The notes under the pieces were generated by a model that had not been told where the DNA came from, ran no database searches, and saw only the letters and a program-made list of their open reading frames with translations. Position numbers and translations under genes: made by a program. 64,000 nt of DNA from Rhizophagus irregularis (taxonomy: Eukaryota > Glomeromycota > Glomeromycetes > Glomerales > Glomeraceae): NCBI RefSeq assembly GCF_026210795.1, contig NC_089447.1, positions 3,102,501 through 3,166,500 on the forward strand. Reading direction: 5' to 3'. How positions within the stretch are numbered: position 1 is the first letter of the stretch; every line of letters begins with the position of its first letter. This document shows, piece by piece, positions 5,205 through 54,165 of this stretch.

Positions 5205-6200
5205 GAAAATTTAATTAAAAAAAATCTTACCGAAAACTTGTATCCAAAGAGCTCTGAAAGAACTACCTAAAAAAAGAAAGTAACAAGCTATTAACCATTT
5301 ATTAAAATAACCCAATTAAAGAAAAAAAAGAATTTACTGAAATATTATGTTCAGAATGACTAAAGAATTGCCTAAAAAATAAAAGAAATTAACTGTTACA
5401 AACCAATTATTAAAAAGTGAAGTAAATAAATATCAAAACTTACCAGAATATCACCTCCAAAGAAATTTCAGTTAAAGTTCCACAGGTCGAAAAGTGAAAA
5501 ATTAGGCACCAATCGGTCACCAATTAGGTAGCTGATTGGTACCTGATTGGTGACCGATTGGTGCCTGATTGGCATTTTCGCCAAATACTGTTACCAATCA
5601 GGCAGTTTGCTAACTTTTGATCCAGTGATCAGAAAAGGATGAAATATAGCTCATTGGAATCGTCTCAACATGAAGAATCTAATGGTAGTAAAATCTTATT
5701 TCTAGGATTAATATTTGATGAGAAATTAAGTAAAATATAAAAATAAAAATATATCATTTATATTTTATTTAATTTTTTATTAACTATTAATCCTAGAGAT
5801 GCGATTTTACTACTATTAGATTCGTCATGTTGAGACGATTCCAATGAGTTATATTTCATTCTTTTCTGATCACTGGATCAAAAGTTAGCAAACTGACTGA
5901 TTGGTGACTGATTGATACCTGATTTTTCACTTTTCGACCTGTGTTCAGTTTTGTGAACAAGCCAGTGTTCTATAAAAAAAAACAATGTGAAAGAAACATT
6001 AGATCGTTTCTTAACTTTAAAATATTAATAAAGTTTTCTTTCTCCCATTTTTTACTTTAATAAACAAGTCTGGTTTCATGTTAAAGCCAACGTTCTACAA
6101 AAAAAAATAATGAAAAAGAAATGTTAATTTATTTCTTAAATTTAAAAAAAAGGATAAAATTTAAAAAAAAAATTTTAAAAAAATAAGTAAGTTTCGAAAT
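5205..6200 (-). other. mini-exon/intron tandem array 1
   Basis: Read on the minus strand, this stretch alternates short unique segments with complete intron signals. Donors GTAAGATTT, GTAAGTTTTG and GTAAAAAATG are followed downstream by acceptors TTTTTTAG, TTTTTTTAG, TTTTTTGTAG and TTTTTATAG. Candidate exons are about 28-40 nt. Units are diverged and no continuous reading frame links the candidate exons. The array is interrupted at 5481-5943 by a MITE. It could be a decayed multi-exon gene or a satellite mimicking one. The same plan is clearer at 27.3, 34.4 and 45.1 kb. Confidence 0.45.
5481..5943. mobile_element. TIR MITE, 463 bp, CACAGGTCG ends, 3-bp duplication TTC
   Basis: The ends are CACAGGTCGAAAAGTGAAAA and its inverse, flanked by TTC on both sides (5478-5480 and 5944-5946). 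Subterminal regions repeat ACCAATC/GATTGGT many times in both orientations. The centre is the palindromic GATTCGTC-type module. A second copy at 17889-18403 has TTA on both sides, so a 3-bp target duplication is supported twice. CACTA/EnSpm and PIF/Harbinger elements make 2-3-bp duplications; the superfamily is not settled. Confidence 0.75.
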
Positions 6201-6224
6201 GAAACTTACATTACTTCTAAGAAA

Positions 6225-6350
6225 AAGAGGCGTGAGAAAAGGAGAATGAAAAGGGAAGGGAAGGACAAAAGGGAAAGGGAGTGATAAAGGGAAAGGGAAG
6301 AACGAAAGGGAAAGGAAGGGATAATAGGGGAAAGGAAGAATAAAGAGAAA
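6225..6350. repeat. polypurine minisatellite (GGGAAAGG-like)
   Basis: About 120 bases are almost exclusively purines on the plus strand, built of degenerate GGGAAAGG and GGAAGGGA units. This is the most G-rich stretch of an otherwise A/T-rich region. Confidence 0.7.
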
Positions 6351-7410
6351 AGTTTAAAAAAAGATTGTCCTTTTTTAAACTTTTAATATGCGTAATGCAA
6401 TATGTGACGTTTAATTAGTGCACTATTCGACCAATGTCTAATTGTAGATTATAGTCAAATTTTTTCCTATAAATTATTTTTATAAATTTATTCACCCATT
6501 TGATAAATATTAAATTATCATTATTTAATGCTGCACATCATGATAAAAATCTTATTGATGATGTTCATTAATGTTAAATATTACATGTCTATTTAAAATA
6601 ATGAATATTATAATATACATGACCTACAAAAATATACATATAATAAACATTTTTCCCATAACTTCCTGATAATAGATCTTACTTCTATAATGATCATTAG
6701 TAAAAAATATTATATTACATTGATGAATATAATTTGATCAGATTATTTTTCCATAATTGACTTTAAGAATATACTTAGGTGAAGGTATATAAATTTGGTA
6801 TGACTACTGATATTTTAGACAATCATCTTTTACATCTTTTAAATGGAATCAATACCACTTTTTTATATGCATTTTTTAGGAATTTTCAAATTAGGTATCT
6901 GATTTAATTTGTTAACATTTAAAAAAACATGTTGTTATTTTTTTTTTAATGAAAAATCTTCATTTTTAATATTTTAATAATTATTTATATATATATTATA
7001 TTTTTATTAAAATTAAATTGCATTTTTAGTTATAATTGCAAAATTTATTTTTTTTAATTTAATGAAAATACTATAAATATTTGTATAATTTAATATAATG
7101 ATATGTTTGAAAGATTTGTATCTAATATTAAACTAAAAAACTATTTTTAAATTAAGTTTCTAATTGTTAAATTAGGAGTTTATAAATGTAAGCTATAGTA
7201 CGTGAAAAAAATAATTATAATAAAAATTATATGTTAAAAATCTTTAATAATTCCTGCAATATACATCTGTTCAGCAATAATTTTACTTGATTACACAGTA
7301 AACATATTTATATAATAATCATTTTTTTGTTTACATACTATTTATGATTAGTTATGCTTTATTTATAACAATATGAATTATGGAATTTTATGCAATATTA
7401 TACAAAGGTA
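6351..7410. other. A+T-rich spacer, no gene seen
   Basis: No coding frame, TIR pair or tandem repeat could be supported. The sequence is mostly A/T homopolymer-rich. Confidence 0.5.
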
Positions 7411-16279: not shown

Positions 16280-16921
16280 ATATTTGGTGATTATAAAGAG
16301 ATGTGACTATATAAAAAATTTCTTATATTTGTATATCATAATTCTGGCCAAAAATTAACATAATTTTAGCCAAAATTATACTTAAAACTTTATTGTATCG
16401 TAACTTCGCCAATATTAATCGTAGAGAGATGATCTTACCGCCATTCGATTCGTCTTGATGAGACGGTTCTAATGGTATAAAATACGTCGAAATCCAATCA
16501 CTAGATTAATTTCTGAAATTAAAAAAATATTAATGGTTTTTGTGTAATAACTCTGTCAATATTGATCCTAGAAAGACGATCTTACTACCATTCGATTCGT
16601 CTTGATGAGATGAATCTAATGGTATAAGATACATCGAAATCCAATCACTAGATCAATTTCCGAAATTAAAAAATATTAAATGGTTTTTAAGTAATAACTC
16701 CGTCAATATTGATCACAGAGAGATGAGCTTACCACCATTCGATTCATCTCGATGAGGCGATTCCAACGAGCTATAAATCGTCTTTTTACAATCACTAGGT
16801 ACCGAGAAATCTAGCAAAATGTTAAATGGTGCAGTAAACGTAAATCAAGAAATATTATAATGCCGATGTTTAACATTTTGTTGAATAACTCGTCAACTAG
16901 TGATCGGAAAAGGATAAAACT

Positions 16922-26760: not shown

Positions 26761-27269
26761 TTGTAATATTACAAAAAAATAATAATAGCTTTATCCATAC
26801 ATTATTTCAAAAATTTTTGTTTTTTTAGTTTTTTTTATATACATACTAGTATTCACCTGTTAACTACGTTAACAGTTAGAGGTAAATCTGCTTACAGTCT
26901 GTATAACAATTCTCTATATTTATAGTAATATGCACTTTTCAATCTTATTACTTAAAAATTCTTAAAAAAAAAAAAATATTTTTTATTTATTTCTTTGAGT
27001 TTTGCTAAAGATCACCAGTAGTGATTTTCACTAATAGTGAATTTTCACTATATGTAAATTTTATTGGTTAATTTTTTGCATTGTGACACAATTTTTATTT
27101 TTTAGTGACTTTGAACTATTTTTATTATGCTCTTTTATTTTTTTGCCTAAGAACACAAAGATCAATAAAAAACGCAAAAATTGAGGATAAGATCAAAGGT
27201 AATCACATCCCAAAGATAAAGAACACAAAGATCAATAAAAATGCAAAAATCAAAGATCAGATCAGAAAT

Positions 27270-27790
27270 GTTAGTAGTGTTCTCAAATCGAAAAAAAAAA
27301 CCAAAAAAGAAACAAAAAAACAAATGCAAATACTCACTTTAAAGCCAAAATCTGGAGTCCAAGTCCATCCCTAAAGAAAAAGAAAGAAAAGGAACATTAG
27401 TAGTGTTCCAAATCAAAAAAGAAAAAGAAACAACAAATAACACAAATACTCACTCCAAAACTGAAATCTTGAGTCCAGTAATATCCAAGTTCATTTCTAA
27501 AGAAAAAGAAAGGAAAAGGAACGTTAGTAGCGTTTCTAAATCAAAAAAACAAAAACAAACAAAAAACAATTGCAAATACTCGCCCAAAGCTGAAATCTGG
27601 TGTCCGGTAATATCCAAGTCCATTTCTAAAGAAAAAGAAAGGAAAATGAACGTTAGTAGTATTCCTAAATAAAAAAAAAAATAAATAAAAAATAACGTGA
27701 ATACTTACTTTAAGCCAAAAGCTGAAGTCCAAGTTCGTCTCTAAAGAAAAAAAAACAAAAGTTGCGCCATACAAAATCATAGCGTGATGC
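27270..27790 (-). other. mini-exon/intron tandem array 3
   Basis: About four minus-strand units of roughly 126 bp are present. Each has a mini-exon of about 30-43 nt (for example ATGAACTTGGATATTACTGG onward), donor GTGAGTATTTG or GTAAGTATTC, a long pyrimidine-rich intron, the branch string TACTAACGTTCC or TACTAATGTTCC inside a hairpin (GGAACATTACTAATGTTCC), and acceptor TTTCTTTTTCTTTAG. TACTAAC is the classical fungal branch consensus. One exon frame reads GYYWTQDFSFG-like peptides; a sibling reads TWTPDFGF-like. Upstream, a minus-strand ATG at 27792 could open a first exon (MHHAMILYG). Coding status is unknown. Confidence 0.6.
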
Positions 27791-27889
27791 AAGCTTTTTA
27801 AATTTTAAATTTATATAATTTATATATATGGTGTCGATCACCACTGGTGATCTTTCATAGTAAACCTTCGGTACTTTCTTACAGAACAA

Positions 27890-28570
27890 CGCTACGGGAT
27901 TCTTTTTTTTTTGTAGGTCAGTTTGGTAGGTTCGTTCAGTGTTCTTTTCGCTCTGAGATTCTTTTTTTTTTTTGTAGGTCGGTGTTCAGCATTCTTCTAT
28001 AGAATTTTCTTTTTTGTAGGTCAGTTCGGTATTCTCTTTCTTGTAGAATGACGCTCCAGGATTCTCTTTCTTGTAGGACGACGCCTTCAGGATTTTTCTC
28101 TTTTTTTGTAGGTCAGTATTCGATATTCTTCTATTGGGTTCGTAGGTTAAGTCATTTTCTCTTTCTTTTAATTTCCCTTTCGTTAGAGGATTCTAACCTC
28201 TTTTATTTTTTTTTTCTTTAGATCGGTCCTCTTTTCAGCATCGGATTTCAGGTAGATCTATAAAGCCCTCTTTCTTTCGTTTTCCTTTAGTTAGAGGTTG
28301 CTAACCTCTTTCATTTTTTTTTTTCTTTAGATTGGTCCTCTTTTCAGCATCAGATTCCGGGTAGGTCTATAAAGCCCTCTTTTTTTGTTTCCTTTAGTTA
28401 GGAGGTTGCTAACCTCTTTCATTTTTTTTCTTTAGGTTGGTCCTCTTTTTAACGCTAGATTCCAGGTAAGTCTTTCTTTGTTTTCGTTTGTTCCGTTTTG
28501 TTTTGTTTTGTTTCATTTTTCATACGTTTTAACCTTTACTCTCTCCATTTAGGTCTTAGCTCTTTAGCTC
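27890..28570 (+). other. mini-exon/intron tandem array 4 (opposite orientation)
   Basis: Three plus-strand units around 28200-28470 each contain acceptor TTTTTCTTTAG, a 30-nt segment (ATTGGTCCTCTTTTCAGCAT plus ten more), donor GTAGATCT / GTAGGTCT / GTAAGTCT, and a hairpin GAGGTTGCTAACCTC with the branch string GCTAAC. More degenerate acceptor-like repeats (TTTTTGTAGGTCAG, TTCTTGTAGGACGACG) precede them from 27890. The arrays at 27.3 and 28.2 kb run in opposite directions from a shared midpoint near 27.8 kb. Confidence 0.5.
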
Positions 28571-28914
28571 TAAGGTGCATCTTGTTTTCTTTTTTGTTTG
28601 TTTTGTTTCATTTTTTGTTCGTTCTAACCTCTACCCTCTCTATTTAGATCTCAGTTCTTTCGGCTCTTTGACCCTAAGGTGCATGTTTTTTTGTTTTTTA
28701 TTTCATTTTATTTGTGTTGCTTGTATTGTTTCATTTTTCATTCATTCTAACTTCTACTCTCTTTCCATTTTGTTGAAAAAAGGGAAAGGAAAAAAAACAA
28801 AAGTAAGAAAAATAAAAAAAAAAATAAAAAAATTAAACGCGTAACATTTTTATTAAGATCAATGCTATTGCATCATGTGTGTCCCGCACTGCGGTTGCAC
28901 AATTTGTAAATAGT

Positions 28915-28975
28915 TATTTATGTGAGTAGTCTAAACATAACGCCCACGTGATTGCAGTATTTTTTAAATATTAGA
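28915..28975. repeat. segment shared with 52445-52505
   Basis: TCTAAACATAACGCCCACGT followed by GATTGCAGTATTTTTTAA occurs here and at about 52460. Upstream partner strings are also shared: ACTAGTATTCACCTGTT at about 26845 and ACTAGTGTTCACCTGTT at about 52155. The two loci may thus be a long and a short member of one nested element family (about 26845-28975 and 52150-52505). Confidence 0.5.
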
Positions 28976-29153
28976 TTTTATATAAAAAATTATATATAAA
29001 TATATACATGTCATAAAATAAGTTGCTTAGCAGTGTAAAAAATTTATGGATTAGATAAAAGTTTGCTTAGCAGACATGAAAAATATCTGCTTATTGACCT
29101 TAGTAAATTTTGAATTTTTTATCTGACCTATATATATATTGTTTAGGGTCCTG

Positions 29154-33560: not shown

Positions 33561-33942
33561 ATATTTTAAAGTAAAACATATTTATAGTAATTTTATTTAA
33601 TAAAATAAACATATATAATATAGTAATTTTATATTAAAATAATACATTGAGTTTAATAAAAATTAAAAAGATACTATTGACAGATAATTGAAAAAAAAAA
33701 ATGAAATTTCATCTTTGTTTATGTATTTATATAAAATTGTGAAATGTAGTACAAAATTAACACTCACCGTTAGTGAAAATAAAATAAAAATTAATTATAA
33801 ATTCAATATATAATATTTTAAAAAGTTATATAAATATGAAAAATAAGCAACTAAAAACTCTTAGTATTTTAAAATAATACTAAAAATATGCAATTTAATT
33901 ATCTTATATAGTATAAAATTTTCTTAAAATTAAGCATTTATC

Positions 33943-36900
33943 GGGAAATTTTTTGGGGAGCAGATCTGTGCAGATTTTCAGAAATTATATCTGCGCAGAT
34001 CTTATACCCTGGCGCAAAACATTAAAGGAAAAATCCAATAAAAAACTGCGCAGATTTTATAAATAACAAAGTTCTGCGCAGATTTTTAAATAAAAAACCT
34101 TTGAAATACCTCAGCAATTTTTTTCAGTAAAAATCTGCGTCACAATAATACAAATTAATTTATTGCATTAATTACTAATTTATTTATATAATCAAAATTA
34201 CTTTTTTATTATATATTAATAAGTTTACAAATACAATTGAAATCTATTACTAGTCATTGCTATTTATCATCTCTTTACTGCACATTTACATGTTGTTAAT
34301 GGTTTGGATATTGTTCCAGTTGGTTCGATTCTAACAAACAACAAAATAAAATAGAAAATCGGAGATGTTTGTTAGAAATAAGAAAATTATTTTGAAGTTA
34401 TTACTTTCAAAATTTTTGACACGAAATCTCAAGAACTAAAAAATAAAGTAAAATGGACGTTAGTAGAACGTTCGTTAAAGAATAATAAAAAAAAATTATA
34501 AAGAATTTTGAAGATATACCTTCAAATTCTTTCGTTCAGGAGCTAGAGAAAAAAACAACTGAAACATTAGTAAACGTTTCGCAAATTAAAAAACATGAAA
34601 GAATTTCGAAGGAATTTTACCTTCAAAATTCCATCCAGAAGCCATAAACCTGCAAAAAGTAAAAAGAAAACACAAACGAAACGTTAGTAAATGTTTCGTT
34701 AAATATTAAAAAAAAATTAATTTCAAAGGTAAATACCTTCGAAATCCTGAAAAAATCTCCAAGTCTGGTTCGTCTAAAGAAGCCCAGCGTCCCTATATAA
34801 AGAAGAAAGAACGTTAAAAACGTTTTTTGAAAAAAAAAATAAATTTTAAAGTTTCGCAACAAGAGTTGTGAAACTTATCATTTACCCATTTCGAAAACCT
34901 TGGAGTATCGAAACCTACAACAAAAAAGAAAAATGAAACGTTAGCTAACATTTCGTTTAAATAAAAACAAAAAAAATAGAATTTCAAAGGTTACCTTCGA
35001 AATTCTGTTCAGGAGCGTTCAGAGAGTCGTGTTCTTACAAAATACAAAAACGAACGTTAGAAAATGCTTCATTAAGTATAATTATTAAAAAAAAATTTTT
35101 TCGAAGGTTTTACTTTTGATATGGAAGACCGAACTCATTTTCGGCTTCCTTTATCTAAAAAAAATAAAATACGAACGTTAGTTAACGTTCGTTTAAATAA
35201 AAAAGAAAAAAAAATTTCAAAGGTTTTTGATATGGGAGCCCGGAATTCGTTTTTGGATTCCCTTGCCTAAAAAAAAAGTAATACGAATGTTAGTTAACGT
35301 TTGTTAATAAATTAAATAAAAAAAAATTTTTTTTACGAAGATTTTACCTTCGTATATGAAAACCTTTGTATGGGAGTTCAAGCTTTATCTAAAAAAAAAG
35401 GAAATATGAACGTTAGTTACGTTTGTCAATAAATTAAATAAAAAAAAATTTTTTTTTACGAAGATTTTACCTTCATATAGGAAAACCTTCGTATGGAAGT
35501 CCAAGTTTTCAGCTTTCTTTATCTAAAAAAAAGGAAACACGAACGTTAGTTACGTTCGTCAATAAATAAAAAAGAAAAAAAATTTTGAAGGTTTTACCTT
35601 TGATATAGGAGTCCAGAACTCATTTTTGGATTCCTTTGCCTAAAAAAAAAGAGATGAAATGTTAGAAACGTTTTGTCAATAAATTAATTAAAAAAAAATT
35701 AATTTTTGAAGGTTTGTTTTACCTTCGATATAGAAGTCCAGAACTTGTTTCAGCTTCCTTTACCTGAAAAAAAAGAAACGAAATGTTATAAACTGAACAT
35801 TTCGTTAATAAATTAATTAAAAGAAATAATTTGAAAGTTTTACCTTTAAACAGAACTTTCAAATAGGTCCGGAATATACCTTCAGCGTTCTGGACCTATA
35901 AAATACAAAAACGAACGTAATTAACATTTATTAAAGTTAAATTATAAAAAAAAAATATTTCGAAGATTTTTACCTTCAAAATAAATGTCCAGAGCCATTC
36001 TTCGGCTTCCAGGACTTATAAATATAAAAATGAACATTAATTAACGTTCGTTAAATAAAATATAAAAAAACAATTCGAAGGTAAAACCTTTACCTTCGAA
36101 ATAAGAGTCCAGAGCCATTTTTTGGCGTCAGGACCTATAAAATACAAAAATGAACGTAACTAACGTTTGTTAAAGTTAAATTATAAAAAAAAAATATTTC
36201 AAAGATTTTTACCTTTGAAATAAGAGTTCGGAGCCGTTCTTCGGCATCCAGGAACTAAAAACATGAAAAACGAACGTTAGCGACGTTCGTTAAACAAAAA
36301 TATAAAAAAAATTTGAAGGTAAAACCTTTACCTTCGAAATAAGAGTCCAGAGCTATTCTTTGGCATCCAGGACCTATAAAACATAAAAACGAACGTTAAT
36401 TAACGTTCGTTAAACAAAAATATAAAAAAAAAATTTAAAGATAAAACCTTTACCTTTGAAATAAGAGTCCAGAGCCATTTTTTGGCGTCAGAACCTATAA
36501 AATATAAAAACGAACGTAACTAACGTTCGTTAAAGTTAAATTATAAAAAAAAAATATTTCAAAGATTTTTACCTTTAAAATAAATGTTCGGAGCCGTTCT
36601 TCAGTGCCCAGGACCTAAAAATATGAAAAACAAACGTTAATTAACGTTCGTTGAAATAAAATTAAAAAAATATTTCGAAGGTAAACTTTACTTTCGAAAT
36701 AAACGTCTGGAGCCATTCTTTGGCATCCAGGACCTATAAAACGTAAAAACAAACGTTAATTAACGTTCATTGAAATAAAATTAAAAAATATATTTTGAAG
36801 GTTAACTTTACCTTCAAAATAAACGTCCAGAGCTGTTCTTTGGCATCCAGGACCTATAAAATACAAAAACGAACGTAACTAACGTTCGTTAAAGTTAAAT

Positions 36901-38539
36901 TATAAAAAAAAATATTTCGAAGATTTTTACCTTCAAAATAAACGTCTGGAGTCGTTCTTTGGCACCCAGAACCTAAAAACATGAAAAACGAACGTTAATT
37001 AACGTTCGTTGGAATAAAATTAAAAAATATTTCAAAGGTAAACTTTACCTTTGAAATAAACGTCCGGAGCCATTCTTTAGAATCCAGGACCTATAAAACG
37101 TAAAAACGAACGTTAATTAACGTTCATTAAAATAAAATTAAAAAATATATTCCGAAGGTTAACTTTACCATCGAAATAAACGTCTGGAGCCGTTCTTTGG
37201 CATCCAGGACCTATAAAACGTAAAAATGAACGTTAATTAATGTTCGTTAAAATAAAATTAAAAAAATATTTCGAAGGTAAACTTTACCTTCAAAATAAAC
37301 GTCCGGAGCTGTTCTTCGGCACCCAGGACCTAAAAACATGAAAAACGAACGTTAATTAACGTTTGTTGAAATAAAATTAAAAAAATATTTTGAAGGTAAA
37401 CTTTACCTTCGAAATAAATGTCCGGAGCCGTTCTTTGGCGCCCAGAACCTAAAAACATGAAAAATGAACGTTAGCGACGTTCATTAAACAAAAATATAAA
37501 AAAAATTTCGAAAATAAAGGTTTTACCTTTGAAATAAGAGTTAGGAGCCGTTCTTTGGCATCCAGGACAAGAAAATAATAAAACTGAATGTTGGATAACG
37601 TCCGGTAATAAAAAATATTAGTTTTGAAGTTTTACCTTCGAAATAGAGTCCAGAACTGGTACTTTCAGCGCTCTGGACTTACAAAAAAAAAATAAAACGA
37701 ACTTTAGCTAATGTTTTGTTAAATTTTTTTTTTTTAAAATGGAGTTCAGGACGTATCTTTTGTATTCTGGACTAATAAAACGAACATTTTCTAACGTTCG
37801 TTAAATAATATTAATATCAAAGTTTGAAATAGAGTACCTTCAGCGTTCTGTAAAATGTATTTTTTGAAGGAAATAAAGGAGTCCAATATCTTTTTAGTCC
37901 GAATCTTCTGCATATTGCAGATTATGTGCCAAATATTAGACGAATTTGCCTTAAAGACTCTGAACCTTGCAAATAAATTTTTTTTTTAAAAAAAAAAATT
38001 TCTCTGATAAGTTTCAAAGATTAAAAAACTATAATAGAAATATTTTTTCTTTGGAATCTTTAACAGATTATTTCCTAAATGGTGTTGTAAAAAAAATTAT
38101 TTCACAAAGTTTTTTCTTTAGTAATAAGTGTTGTAGAAAAATTATTTTTTAAAGTCTTGTAAATTTTTTTTTTTTAAAGAGTATTGTAGAAAAAATCATT
38201 TAGGTATTAAATCAAGTTAGAGTTAATTAAAGTTTAAATGATGAAATTGCAGATTGAACTGATATTTTAATAAAAAAAAAGCAAATATCTGCAAAATTGC
38301 AGACTTCCGCATAAATTTCACATAAAAAAAAGCAGAAATCTGCAAAATCGCAGACTTTCTGCAAAAATGCATACATAAAAAATCAGAAACATGCAAAATT
38401 GCAGATTATTGCATAACTTTATAAAAAATAAAAAGTGAAAATCTGCAAAATTGCAGACTTCCGCATAAATTCACAAAAAAAATGCAGAAATCTGCTAATT
38501 TTACAGATCTCCGCAGTTCTGCATCTTAAAAAATTTCCC
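33943..38539. mobile_element. nested TIR element with TCTGC satellite arms around the mini-exon array
   Basis: GGGAAATTTTTTGGGGAGCA at the left pairs with the right end AAAAAATTTCCC (inverse). Left arm 33955-34140 repeats CTGCGCAGATTTT. Right arm 38270-38520 repeats ATCTGCAAAATTGCAGA. The tandem array sits between the arms. The layout TIR, motif satellite, mini-exon array, motif satellite, TIR is the same as in the element at 44962-46605. The target duplication is not resolved. Confidence 0.55.
34410..37860 (-). other. mini-exon/intron tandem array 5 (about 29 units of about 119 bp)
   Basis: Read on the minus strand, each unit has acceptor TTTTACGTTTTATAG, a mini-exon of about 42 nt (GTCCTGGATGCCAAAGAACG onward, ending TTTCGAAG), donor GTAAAG, an A/T-rich intron, and a hairpin GAACGTTAATTAACGTTC containing the branch-like TTAAC. 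Older units at the 34.4-35.4 kb side have TACTAAC or ACTAACG there. The donor is also in a hairpin (TTCGAAGGTAAAGTTTACCT). Exon length is often 42, a multiple of three. Two frames give SWMPKNGSGRLFRR-like or VLDAKERLRTFISK-like peptides, but individual units carry stops or 1-nt length changes, so a single long coding frame is not maintained. Confidence 0.65.
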
Positions 38540-38737
38540 AATGTTATAAAATTCTTACATCATAAAACTTTTCTATGTTGGCTAAGCACCTTGGTACCTT
38601 ACATATATAAGCATTTTCTGGGGTCCTGATATTATTTGGATATGTTTTATAATAAGAATGATATCTGCCAATGACCTACTAAAAATGGGTATTCTTTTAC
38701 CAAAATGAATATGTTAGGTACACATCTGTATTCAAGA

Positions 38738-44961: not shown

Positions 44962-46605
44962 TAGTGCTTCTAACAGATCGGTTCAGACCGGATTTAGCTT
45001 AAATCTGATCCGATTTGATTTTTATTTTAATAGATCTGATCTGATCTGAATCTGATCAGATCTGGTTCAATTTGATCCAAATCTGGTTCGGATCCATTTG
45101 AATCCGATTTGAATCTGATCCAAATCTGGTTCAGATCTGGTCCTTGTACTAAAAAAAGGAAAGGGAACGTTAATTACGTTCCTTAAAGTAAAAAAAATAA
45201 AAATAAAAATAAAAAAACGAACTTACCATAGTTTGTTCTTTTAAATCCTGGTCGTTCAGCTTCGTCTCGCGTCCAGGTTTCCTAAAAATAAAAGAAAGGG
45301 AACGTTAATTACGTTCCCTTAAGTAAAAATAAAAAAAAAACCTAAAAAAAAGAAACGAACTTACCATAGTTCGTTCTTTTAAATCCTGGTCGTTAACGTC
45401 TTAACGACTTCGTTCGTCCAGGTTTCCTAAAAAAAAAGAAAGAGAACGTTAATTACGTTCCCTTAAGTAAAAATAAAAAAAAAACTTAAAAAAAGAAACG
45501 AACTTACCATAGTTCGTTCTTTTTTAAATCCTGGTCGTTAATGGCTTCGTCCACGTCCAGGTTTCCTAAAAAAAGAAAGGGAACGTTAATTACGTTCCCT
45601 TAAGTAAATTAAAAAAAAAAACTTAAAAAAAGAAACGAACTTACCATAGTTCGTTCTTTTTTAAATCCTGGTCGTTAATGGCTTCGTCCACGTCCAGGTT
45701 TCCTAAAAAAAGAAAGGGAACGTTAATTACGTTCCCTTAAGTAAATTAAAAAAAAACTTAAAAAAAGAAATGAACTTACCATAGTTCATTCTTTTTTTAA
45801 ATCCTGGTCGTTAACGACTTCGTCCACGTTCAGGTTTCCTAAAAAAAAAGAAAGGGAACGTTAATTACGTTCCCTTAAGTAAAAATAAAAAAAAAACTTA
45901 AAAAAAGAAACGAACTTACCATAGTTCGTTCTTTTTAAATCCTGGTCGTTAATGGCTTCGTCCACGTCCAGGTTTCCTAAAAAAGAAAGGGAACGTTAAT
46001 TACGTTCCCTTAAGTAAAAATAAAAAAACTTAAAAAAAGAAACGAACTTACCATAGTTCGTTCTTTTTTTAAATTTTCGTTAATGGCTTCGTCCACGTCC
46101 AGGTTTCCTAAAAAAAGAAAGGGAACGTTAATTACGTTCCCTTAAGTAAAAATAAAAAAAAAACTTAAAAAAGAACGAACTCACCATAGATTCGTTCTTT
46201 TTTTTTTAAATCCTGGTCGTTAGGCTTCATTCGTTTAGGCTTCCTAATAAAAAAGAAGGGAACCGTTAATTAAGTTCCCTCAAGTAAAAATAACAAAAAA
46301 AAAGAAACGAACTTACCTAGTTCGTTCTTTTAAATCTTGGTCGTCCAGCGTCCGTTCGTCCAGGAAAGGGTTTTTAAAAAAAAAATGAATTTTTTTAAAA
46401 AATTTAAAAAAAAAATCTGATCCGAAATCTGTTCAGATCGGATCAGATTTTCTCGTGTTTGATCTGATCCGATCTGAATCTGATCGGATCAGATTTTTTT
46501 TAAATCCGATCTGATCTACGGATCAAAATTTTGAAAACCGAACCGATCTGACTCGGATCAAATCTGCGGATCCCAGATCAGATCGGATTTTTTTTGGAGC
46601 ACTAA
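44962..46605. mobile_element. hAT-type element, 1644 bp, GATCTGAT arms around a mini-exon array
   Basis: The ends are TAGTGCTTC / GGAGCACTA, matching the hAT TAGNG terminus. A perfect 8-bp duplication ATTGTAGC flanks it (44954-44961 and 46606-46613) inside exon 2 of the transposase gene. The arms (44975-45140 and 46418-46590) are dense arrays of GATCTGATC/GATCCGATT motifs in both orientations. The centre is the mini-exon array. No transposase is present, so it depends on a hAT enzyme supplied elsewhere. Confidence 0.88.
45150..46380 (-). other. mini-exon/intron tandem array 6 (about 9 units of about 137 bp)
   Basis: On the minus strand, each unit has acceptor TTCTTTTTTTAG, a mini-exon of about 58-62 nt (GAAACCTGGACGTGGACGAA onward, ending GAACGAACTATG), donor GTAAGTTCG, and an intron with the hairpin GGGAACGTAATTAACGTTCC holding the branch-like TTAACG. 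The donor is in a second hairpin (ACGAACTATGGTAAGTTCGT). The exon itself has inverted CCTGG / CCAGG ends. One frame of the 58-nt form is open (NLDVDEAINDQDLKKNEL), but 58 is not a multiple of three and the 62-nt form has stops in every frame. Units are highly uniform, so the array is young or homogenised. Confidence 0.65.
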
Positions 46606-53019: not shown

Positions 53020-54165
53020 CAGTCAACTTTCTTTATAGTCACACATTTGGGACAGTCCATATTTGGTGATTATAAAGAGATGTGACTATATAAAAAATTT
53101 CTTATATTTGTATATCATAATTCTGGCCAAAAATTAACATAATTTTAGCCAAAATTATACTTAAAACTTTATTGTATCGTAACTTCGCCAATATTAATCG
53201 TAGAGAGATGATCTTACCGCCATTCGATTCGTCTTGATGAGACAGTTCTAATGGTATAAAATACGTCGAAATCCAATCACTAGATTAATTTCTGAAATTA
53301 AAAAAATATTAATGGTTTTTGTGTAATAACTCTGTCAATATTGATCCTAGAAAGACGATCTTACTACCATTCGATTCGTCTTGATGAGATGAATCTAATG
53401 GTATAAGATACATCGAAATCCAATCACTAGATCAATTTCCGAAATTAAAAAATATTAAATGGTTTTTAAGTAGTAACTCCGTCAATATTGATCACAGAGA
53501 GATGAGCTTACCACCATTCGATTCGTCTTGATGAGGCGATTCCAACGAGCTATTAATCGTCTTTTTACAATCACTAGGTACCGAGAAATTTAGCAAAATG
53601 TTAAATGGCGCAGTAAACGTAAATTAAGAAATATAATAATGCTGATGCTTAACATTTTGTTGAATAACTCATCAGCAAGTGATCGCAAAAGGATAAAACT
53701 ACCACCATTCGATTCATCTCAGTGAGAAGATTCTAACAAGCTATGATACATCTTTGTACGATTATTAAATGCCAAGTTATTTAATATATTCTTTATATAA
53801 CTGTGATTATAAACTATACATGCCACCCAAATTATTTTAGACTGCCGTAATTATAAGTAAAATCCCAAATTCAATTATGGCATCCCAAATTATTTTGGCA
53901 CTTTACATAGTAAATTATATATAAACCGAATGAATTATGGCATCCCAAATTATAATTATGGCATCCCAAAATAATTTGGGCAGCATGTATATTATAAACG
54001 GTTCTTTTTAATATAAGATTTTTGAGGATAGGTGTGATAGTGACTATAGATAGATAGTGACTATATAGGATAGTTTTTAATAATAAAGTGTTTTGAACAT
54101 TCAACTGGTGTGACTATATAGTAGAATGTGATTATAACGGGAGTGACTATAGAGGGAGTTGACTG
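53020..54165. mobile_element. CAGTCAAC TA-target element, copy 2
   Basis: Flanked by TA (53018-53019 and 54166-54167) with ends as in copy 1. Over shared parts it is nearly identical to 15925-17636, including the module copies. It lacks both LINE insertions but has its own 177-bp insertion at 53815-53991. The high identity suggests recent transposition or duplication. Confidence 0.8.
53815..53991. mobile_element. 177-bp MITE, TATACATGC ends, 8-bp duplication
   Basis: The ends TATACATGCCACCCAAATTA and the inverse of TATACATGCTGCCCAAATTA are flanked by a perfect 8-bp duplication TTATAAAC (53807-53814 and 53992-53999). Copy 1 of the host element shows the empty site at about 17459. The interior repeats ATGGCATCCCAAATTAT. 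A related fragment is at 54168-54285. Confidence 0.82.

Follow-up and report, generated by a model that had tools for sequence, protein, structure and literature searches.

Arrays of mini-exons and introns inside a Plavaka-type DNA transposon of Rhizophagus irregularis

Plavaka elements are DNA transposons of the CACTA/CMC/EnSpm group (Pfam profile PF18759). They are reported to be prevalent in R. irregularis, whose genome is about half repetitive, with much of the repetitive part unclassified (10.1093/g3journal/jkae055). The words 'tandem', 'intron' and 'splic' do not occur in the main text of that report. Introner-like elements of fungi are described as having inverted repeats (PMC8469720), and introners are reported to insert singly into many host genes (PMC9860276); the main text of the latter source contains no occurrence of Rhizophagus or Glomero. 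SP7-like proteins are described as having a signal peptide and 6–11 protein repeats, with a single conserved intron lying ahead of the first repeat (PMC11333574). Cell-surface repeat proteins of these fungi were considered and set aside: they are reported to have one or two introns, unlike the array described here (PMC8786786). Literature searches, in which few subscription journals and preprints were covered, gave no title or abstract opening that describes arrays of this kind.

The window is the whole stretch of DNA analysed, 64,000 nucleotides of R. irregularis (C19:3102501-3166500). It belongs to a genome of 146,748,485 bases in 32 contigs.

The carrier transposon

The array is the interior of a bounded transposon, and is neither a free-standing gene nor a satellite. 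The preliminary description had dealt with the array alone and did not recognize the element around it, the sharp ends of which are defined by inverted repeats and a target-site duplication (TSD). Homology among related copies stops abruptly at window positions 38543 and 33940, copy after copy.

33939..38543, minus strand: non-autonomous Plavaka-type DNA transposon, 4605 bp, delimited by homology limits, terminal inverted repeats (TIRs) and TSD
38528..38543, minus strand: 5' TIR, CATTGGGAAATTTTTT, common form CATCGGGAAATTTTTT
33939..33954, minus strand: 3' TIR, AAAAAATTTCCCGATA, common form AAAAAATTTCCCGATG
38290..38543, minus strand: 5' end common to the window element and the Plavaka element L043, 89% over 255 aligned columns
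33940..34108, minus strand: 3' end common to the window element and L043, 95% over 169 bp

By hand count among the matches listed, the carrier family is present at a minimum of 40 distinct genomic sites; 20 of these loci were fetched and, with the window copy, form the sample used below. With up to three mismatches, a 31-nt form of the 5' end has 68 genome-wide matches and a 34-nt form of the 3' end has 74, against zero for the control in each case. The window copy is flanked by a 2-bp TSD (AA/AA). Of the 20 fetched loci, 14 have both ends, as do the window copy, L042 and L043, making 17 two-ended elements. The other six fetched loci lack an end and fall outside the TSD count. In 15 of the 17, L042 and L043 among them, the same 2 bp stand on both sides; the exceptions are L011 and L012. 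A 3-bp TSD is found in none of the 17.

The ends of the carrier are also common to L042 and L043, both of which bear a transposase. Within L042 (C3:1643437-1649917), a six-frame search of the genome gives a match to the Plavaka profile, although its single open reading frames give no Plavaka Pfam match. L043 is the Plavaka element of C23, and PF18759 matches are also present between like ends, paired by eye, on C23, C6, C10, C8, C28 and C5. Between the shared ends, the window element and L043 have short scattered matches only. The TIRs of the window element are thus those of transposase-bearing elements, and its TSD has the 2 bp of its complete relatives. A transposase of its own is absent: the longest stop-free frame is 83 aa, which is the reason for the term non-autonomous. 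Because its ends are shared with complete Plavaka elements and the array lies inside, the window element is regarded as a non-autonomous Plavaka derivative. KDZ transposase was also found in the genome, but the carrier ends pointed to Plavaka. The 5' shared stretch overlaps 50-bp subterminal repeats, reported by TRF at 38272-38495. L043 itself has a 58-bp minisatellite at 6120-6741, palindromic by eye and without introns, and further reading frames on the opposite strand.

Splice signals and mini-exons of the array

A minus-strand tandem array of about 29 units of about 119 bp had previously been placed at 34410..37860. The present analysis confirms it with limits at about 34331-37850; TRF gives a period of 119 with 14 copies at 35892-37568, and more diverged units extend to 34331.

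34331..37850, minus strand: about 29 mini-exon/intron units, the exon most often 42 nt long and most introns within 74-93 nt
36573..37448, minus strand: most regular part, eight 42-nt mini-exons (GTCCTGG..CGAAG) with introns of 76-78 nt
34331..35033, minus strand: diverged 3'-most units, with two acceptors peculiar to the window copy among the aligned copies

On the minus strand, the order within a unit is mini-exon, GTAAA-type donor, AT-rich intron, hairpin, T-rich tract and YAG. The hairpin holds a branch-like motif, TTAAC or CTAAC. Donor slots were listed by hand, 29 in number, a further donor near 37735 being too degenerate for listing; GT is kept in 28 of the 29. The acceptor that follows the T-rich tract is [CT]AG in 26 of the 29 slots and AAG in two (36093 and 35113). 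The remaining slot, 37635, has none, the acceptor reported there by the script being a CAG within the hairpin. The earlier statement that each unit carries full splice signals is not confirmed, as some are broken. At the acceptors near 34544 and at 34331, AG is missing in nine of ten aligned sequences, the exception being the window copy.

Conservation was examined in the units of this family (family a) throughout the sample. Searching the window copy and the 20 loci with a profile yielded 417 units, which were scored without requiring splice sites. Of 350 units scorable at the donor, 340 (97%) have GT, in the form GTA or GTG, which ranks second among 44 informative dinucleotides; AG in the acceptor zone, present in 365 of 387 (94%), ranks third. 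The best-kept dinucleotide is the AG that closes the exon. Units are related by duplication, so that these ranks are not independent trials. When the sample is limited to 40 units with less than 80% likeness (mean identity 0.68), 31 of 32 keep GT and 32 of 34 keep AG, against a median dinucleotide of 0.66; two of 45 dinucleotides do better than GT and three better than AG. Among 22 units less than 75% alike, GT is kept in 16 of 17, with three of 45 dinucleotides better, and AG in 16 of 19, with nine better. The preliminary description had proposed judging GT and AG by their preservation relative to other bases, and in family a they prove to be among the best-kept dinucleotides. This pattern favours upkeep of the splice sites in family a. 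Retro-copies of spliced transcripts were sought in the genome by junction pattern: that of family a gave one match against two and one for the controls, and that of array family b (see below) gave none.

The mini-exons, on balance, do not appear to evolve as protein. In the window copy and its 20 relatives, 135 exons were measured: 85 are 42 nt long, 14 are 41 nt, 13 are 52 nt, six are 32 nt and 17 have other lengths. The exon-length pattern itself demanded GT and AG and is uninformative on their conservation. Lengths are multiples of 3 in 90 exons and not in 45; exon lengths thus vary modulo 3, a check proposed earlier for the units. The proposed comparison of dN and dS between units reveals no synonymous excess: relative to their consensus, the 85 exons of 42 nt have 186 synonymous and 457 nonsynonymous changes, where 208 and 428 are expected from the same kinds of change. 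CpG transitions make up 163 of these 643 changes. An in-frame stop occurs in seven of the 85 exons. Variable exon lengths and stops had already been held to oppose a simple long protein, and these counts bear that out. A single result leans towards coding: changes that create a stop in one step number zero against seven expected. In an alignment of the 3' part (the window copy and the nine of 20 loci with a match longer than 1200 bp), variation is 3.8% in exons, 2.8% in introns and 1.3% in the 3' end, the exon borders being set by hand and in some cases displaced by a few bases.

Gene models may be predicted ab initio. The joined translation of eight window exons, used as a query, found one R. 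irregularis protein, and a second search from that protein brought the total to five, query included. One of the five, OCT59_026838 (P0003; 144 aa, C6), maps letter for letter to a copy of the transposon at C6:5658000-5666000 (L016) through 11 mini-exons of 34, 41, 41, 42, 46, 42, 41, 28, 56, 29 and 32 nt, the script giving the first complete path. The model skips three units and uses as one acceptor an AAAG just beyond a lost acceptor. OCT59_026838 is thus a splice model through a transposon copy, and at least one annotated orphan gene is therefore transposon sequence. The other four proteins, with OCT59_028390 (C8) among the public entries, have no exact mapping to the window copy or the fetched loci. 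The predictions read the exon in two frames by eye (VLDAxxxLxTxISK and PGxQRxAPDVxFEG). Together with the lengths modulo 3 and the lack of synonymous excess, this gives no support to the splice-diversified gene suggested in the preliminary description. According to Manley et al. 2023 (PMC10234402), the annotation, to which the OCT59 tag probably belongs, was built in BRAKER from RNA reads together with Nanopore cDNA.

Other intron-like arrays and their hairpins

Two further repeats in the window contain arrays of similar layout.

44962..46604, minus strand: second, unrelated carrier, a hAT-type element with a mini-exon/intron array of 137-bp period (family b)
26815..29006, no strand assigned: third dispersed repeat (family c), with intron-like arrays on both strands

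The hallmarks of hAT elements are an 8-bp TSD and a TAGNG-type TIR. The array-b element in the window has the TIR TAGTGCTCC and the 8-bp TSD GCTACAAT, and 8-bp TSDs are also seen in L032 (GTTTAAAC) and L033 (TATAAATA); it is assigned to hAT from its TSD and TIR. The element interrupts, and is oriented like, a reading frame resembling a transposase, which we take to be of Tc1 type from the motif IDESAKDERS. The arrays of repeat c lie, by eye, at about 27160-27750 on the minus strand and about 27880-28770 on the plus strand. Elsewhere in the window, a 48-bp minisatellite at 995-1466 and 2594-2933 reads as a palindrome with CTAAC in the loop (TGCCAAAACTAACAGTTTTGGCA) and has no clear acceptor by eye, and two distant arrays (16401-16760 and 53180-53535) have a nearly identical 147-bp unit.

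Families b, c and c' have most of their splice sites, which show no clear advantage in conservation over other dinucleotides. The donor of family b is kept in 51 of 54 units (23 dinucleotides better) and the acceptor in 55 of 61 (28 of 57 better); its six acceptor misses, TTTTAAAA, are taken as the stretch before the first exon. In family c, the donor is kept in 13 of 16, below the median, with 27 of 48 dinucleotides better, and the acceptor in 15 of 15, tied with 17 others. Donor and acceptor of family c' are each kept in 15 of 16, with 19 of 56 dinucleotides better.

A scan for arrays of 60-200 bp covered 253 kb, namely the window and L011-L040, most of these loci having been selected because they contain a, b or c. 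One unit per cluster was compared with 100 shuffles of itself. An ordered intron signal matched by fewer than 5% of the shuffles is present in eight of 23 clusters, where about one is expected by chance. Family a accounts for two of the eight (L011 and L022), and of the passing clusters only L019, L025 (4891-5266) and L033 were met unsought. The main consensus unit of family a is matched by 9% of its own shuffles. The arrays met by chance, at L033 3471-3910, L019 1-882 and L025 4891-5266, differ in sequence. The recurrence of candidate intron arrays in unlike repeats is well indicated within the 253 kb examined, and the hAT element and the other repeats suggest that such arrays may have arisen more than once.

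Hairpins are common in these arrays but not required. In the window copy, the donor and branch windows are more stably folded than their shuffles, with mean z of -3.1 and -2.7, respectively (first 12 of 19 matched introns; 10 of 12 below -1.5 for each window). The same is true of families a and b and of one L025 intron. Family c (one intron) has the branch hairpin only, and c' is weak (one of three introns); in L019 (five introns) and L033 (two introns), folding against shuffles detects no donor or branch hairpins. Of the three hairpins per unit described earlier, those of donor and branch thus stand and that of the exon does not, as 59% of its cells are paired in family a against 61% in shuffles. 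The donor stem of family a is paired at 0.895 against at most 0.889 in shuffles, with nine double changes against at most eight. Compensatory change in the branch stem of family a was not found, and overall it is weak or absent. Conserved RNA folds were rejected as an account, the donor stem being only slightly above shuffles and the branch and exon stems not; a search for known RNA families gave only weak matches, four in number and none of them close to its gathering score.

Interpretation and comparison with known systems

The best reading, to which we give a modest preference on sequence evidence, is that the array is cargo of a non-autonomous Plavaka transposon that passes as an intron-rich gene to the spliceosome. 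The proposed course is as follows. (i) The element would have retained the ends of a complete Plavaka without the transposase, its interior being a tandemly amplified exon–intron unit. (ii) The unit is a putative short spliceosomal intron, with GTAAA-type donor, branch in a hairpin, T-rich tract and YAG, between mini-exons of about 42 nt. (iii) The mini-exons probably encode no kept protein. (iv) A transcript across the element would be seen by the spliceosome as intron-rich pre-mRNA. (v) Passing for a gene may be a selected trait, the possible benefit being either less damage to host transcripts or a lower chance that intron-rich RNA is taken for foreign. Splicing can, by one idea, flag transposons to RNA interference. 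Full splicing would by estimate leave about 1.2 kb of mini-exons and both ends, and clean removal from host transcripts is therefore not expected. The idea of a satellite selected to be spliced out, raised in the preliminary description, survives in that the splice sites of family a are among its best-kept letters; the carrier is a transposon and not a satellite. More broadly, several unrelated families of non-autonomous transposons might have independently evolved arrays of working introns, a spliceosome-based disguise that could make up a large part of the 'unclassified' repeats; we offer this wider proposal tentatively and think it doubtful as it stands.

Capture and tandem growth are nothing unusual in non-autonomous elements, and the array might be passive: a Plavaka would have captured an intron-bearing gene fragment, slippage and unequal exchange would have amplified one unit, and the splice sites would seem kept merely because the units are young, the array having no function. 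Freely drifting exons, the scarcity of compensatory change in hairpin stems and the unexceptional splice sites of families b, c and c' all agree with this account. It is harder to reconcile with GT and AG in family a, which stay near their full frequency even among non-redundant units, where the median dinucleotide falls to two thirds, and one capture is insufficient for unrelated arrays with the same order of donor, branch and acceptor in the hAT element and other repeats. We consider passive cargo possible, though not the probable explanation. That the run of AT-rich palindromes itself matters, through cruciforms or binding of transposase or chromatin, with incidental splice signals, is unlikely. 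The strong folding of donor and branch, seen in families a and b as well as in one L025 intron, speaks for such a role, as does the palindromic, intron-free minisatellite of L043. L019 and L033, however, have the intron signal without such hairpins, the acceptor AG is kept though it lies outside the donor and branch hairpins, and the T-tract and AG are confined, by eye, to one strand.

More improbable still is a real repeat-protein gene, for instance a secreted one, with one mini-exon per repeat. The commonest exon length (42 nt), a consensus open in one frame, the deficit of single-step stops and the five public predictions containing such repeats are what it would lead one to expect. It is opposed by the third of exon lengths that are not multiples of 3, by the synonymous and nonsynonymous counts and the stops, by exons that vary more than introns (within hand-set borders), by the use of two frames of the same exon and by the mobility of the copies.

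If arrays of this kind are common, part of the unclassified repeats of R. irregularis would be explained and some orphan gene models, of which P0003 is one example, would be accounted for. Whether introns protect mobile DNA from silencing could also be tested directly, given the many copies that occur naturally in this fungus.

Four described systems invite comparison. The maize elements Ds and dSpm are, like the window element, DNA transposons with splice sites, which are used when the elements lie inside genes; they have few such sites, near the ends, and are not known to hold an array of complete introns. The SP7-like effector family shares with the array the same fungus, paralogues across chromosomes and tandem repeats. 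The likeness in exon–intron layout suggested earlier is not borne out by the description of SP7-like proteins, which have 6–11 repeats and a single conserved intron upstream of these (PMC11333574); the array has a putative intron in each unit, and no protein conservation was found in it. Introners and introner-like elements resemble the array in that a mobile element has multiplied and spread spliceosomal introns, which in the array are putative. They are single insertions, whereas the window element holds dozens of introns in tandem, with mini-exons, within one TIR element; these introns are internal tandem units of a larger element and not single introns in a host exon. Plavaka elements are the closest relatives, with like ends, a 2-bp TSD and shared 5' and 3' stretches. 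The window element differs from them in having no transposase, and its interior is an exon–intron array.
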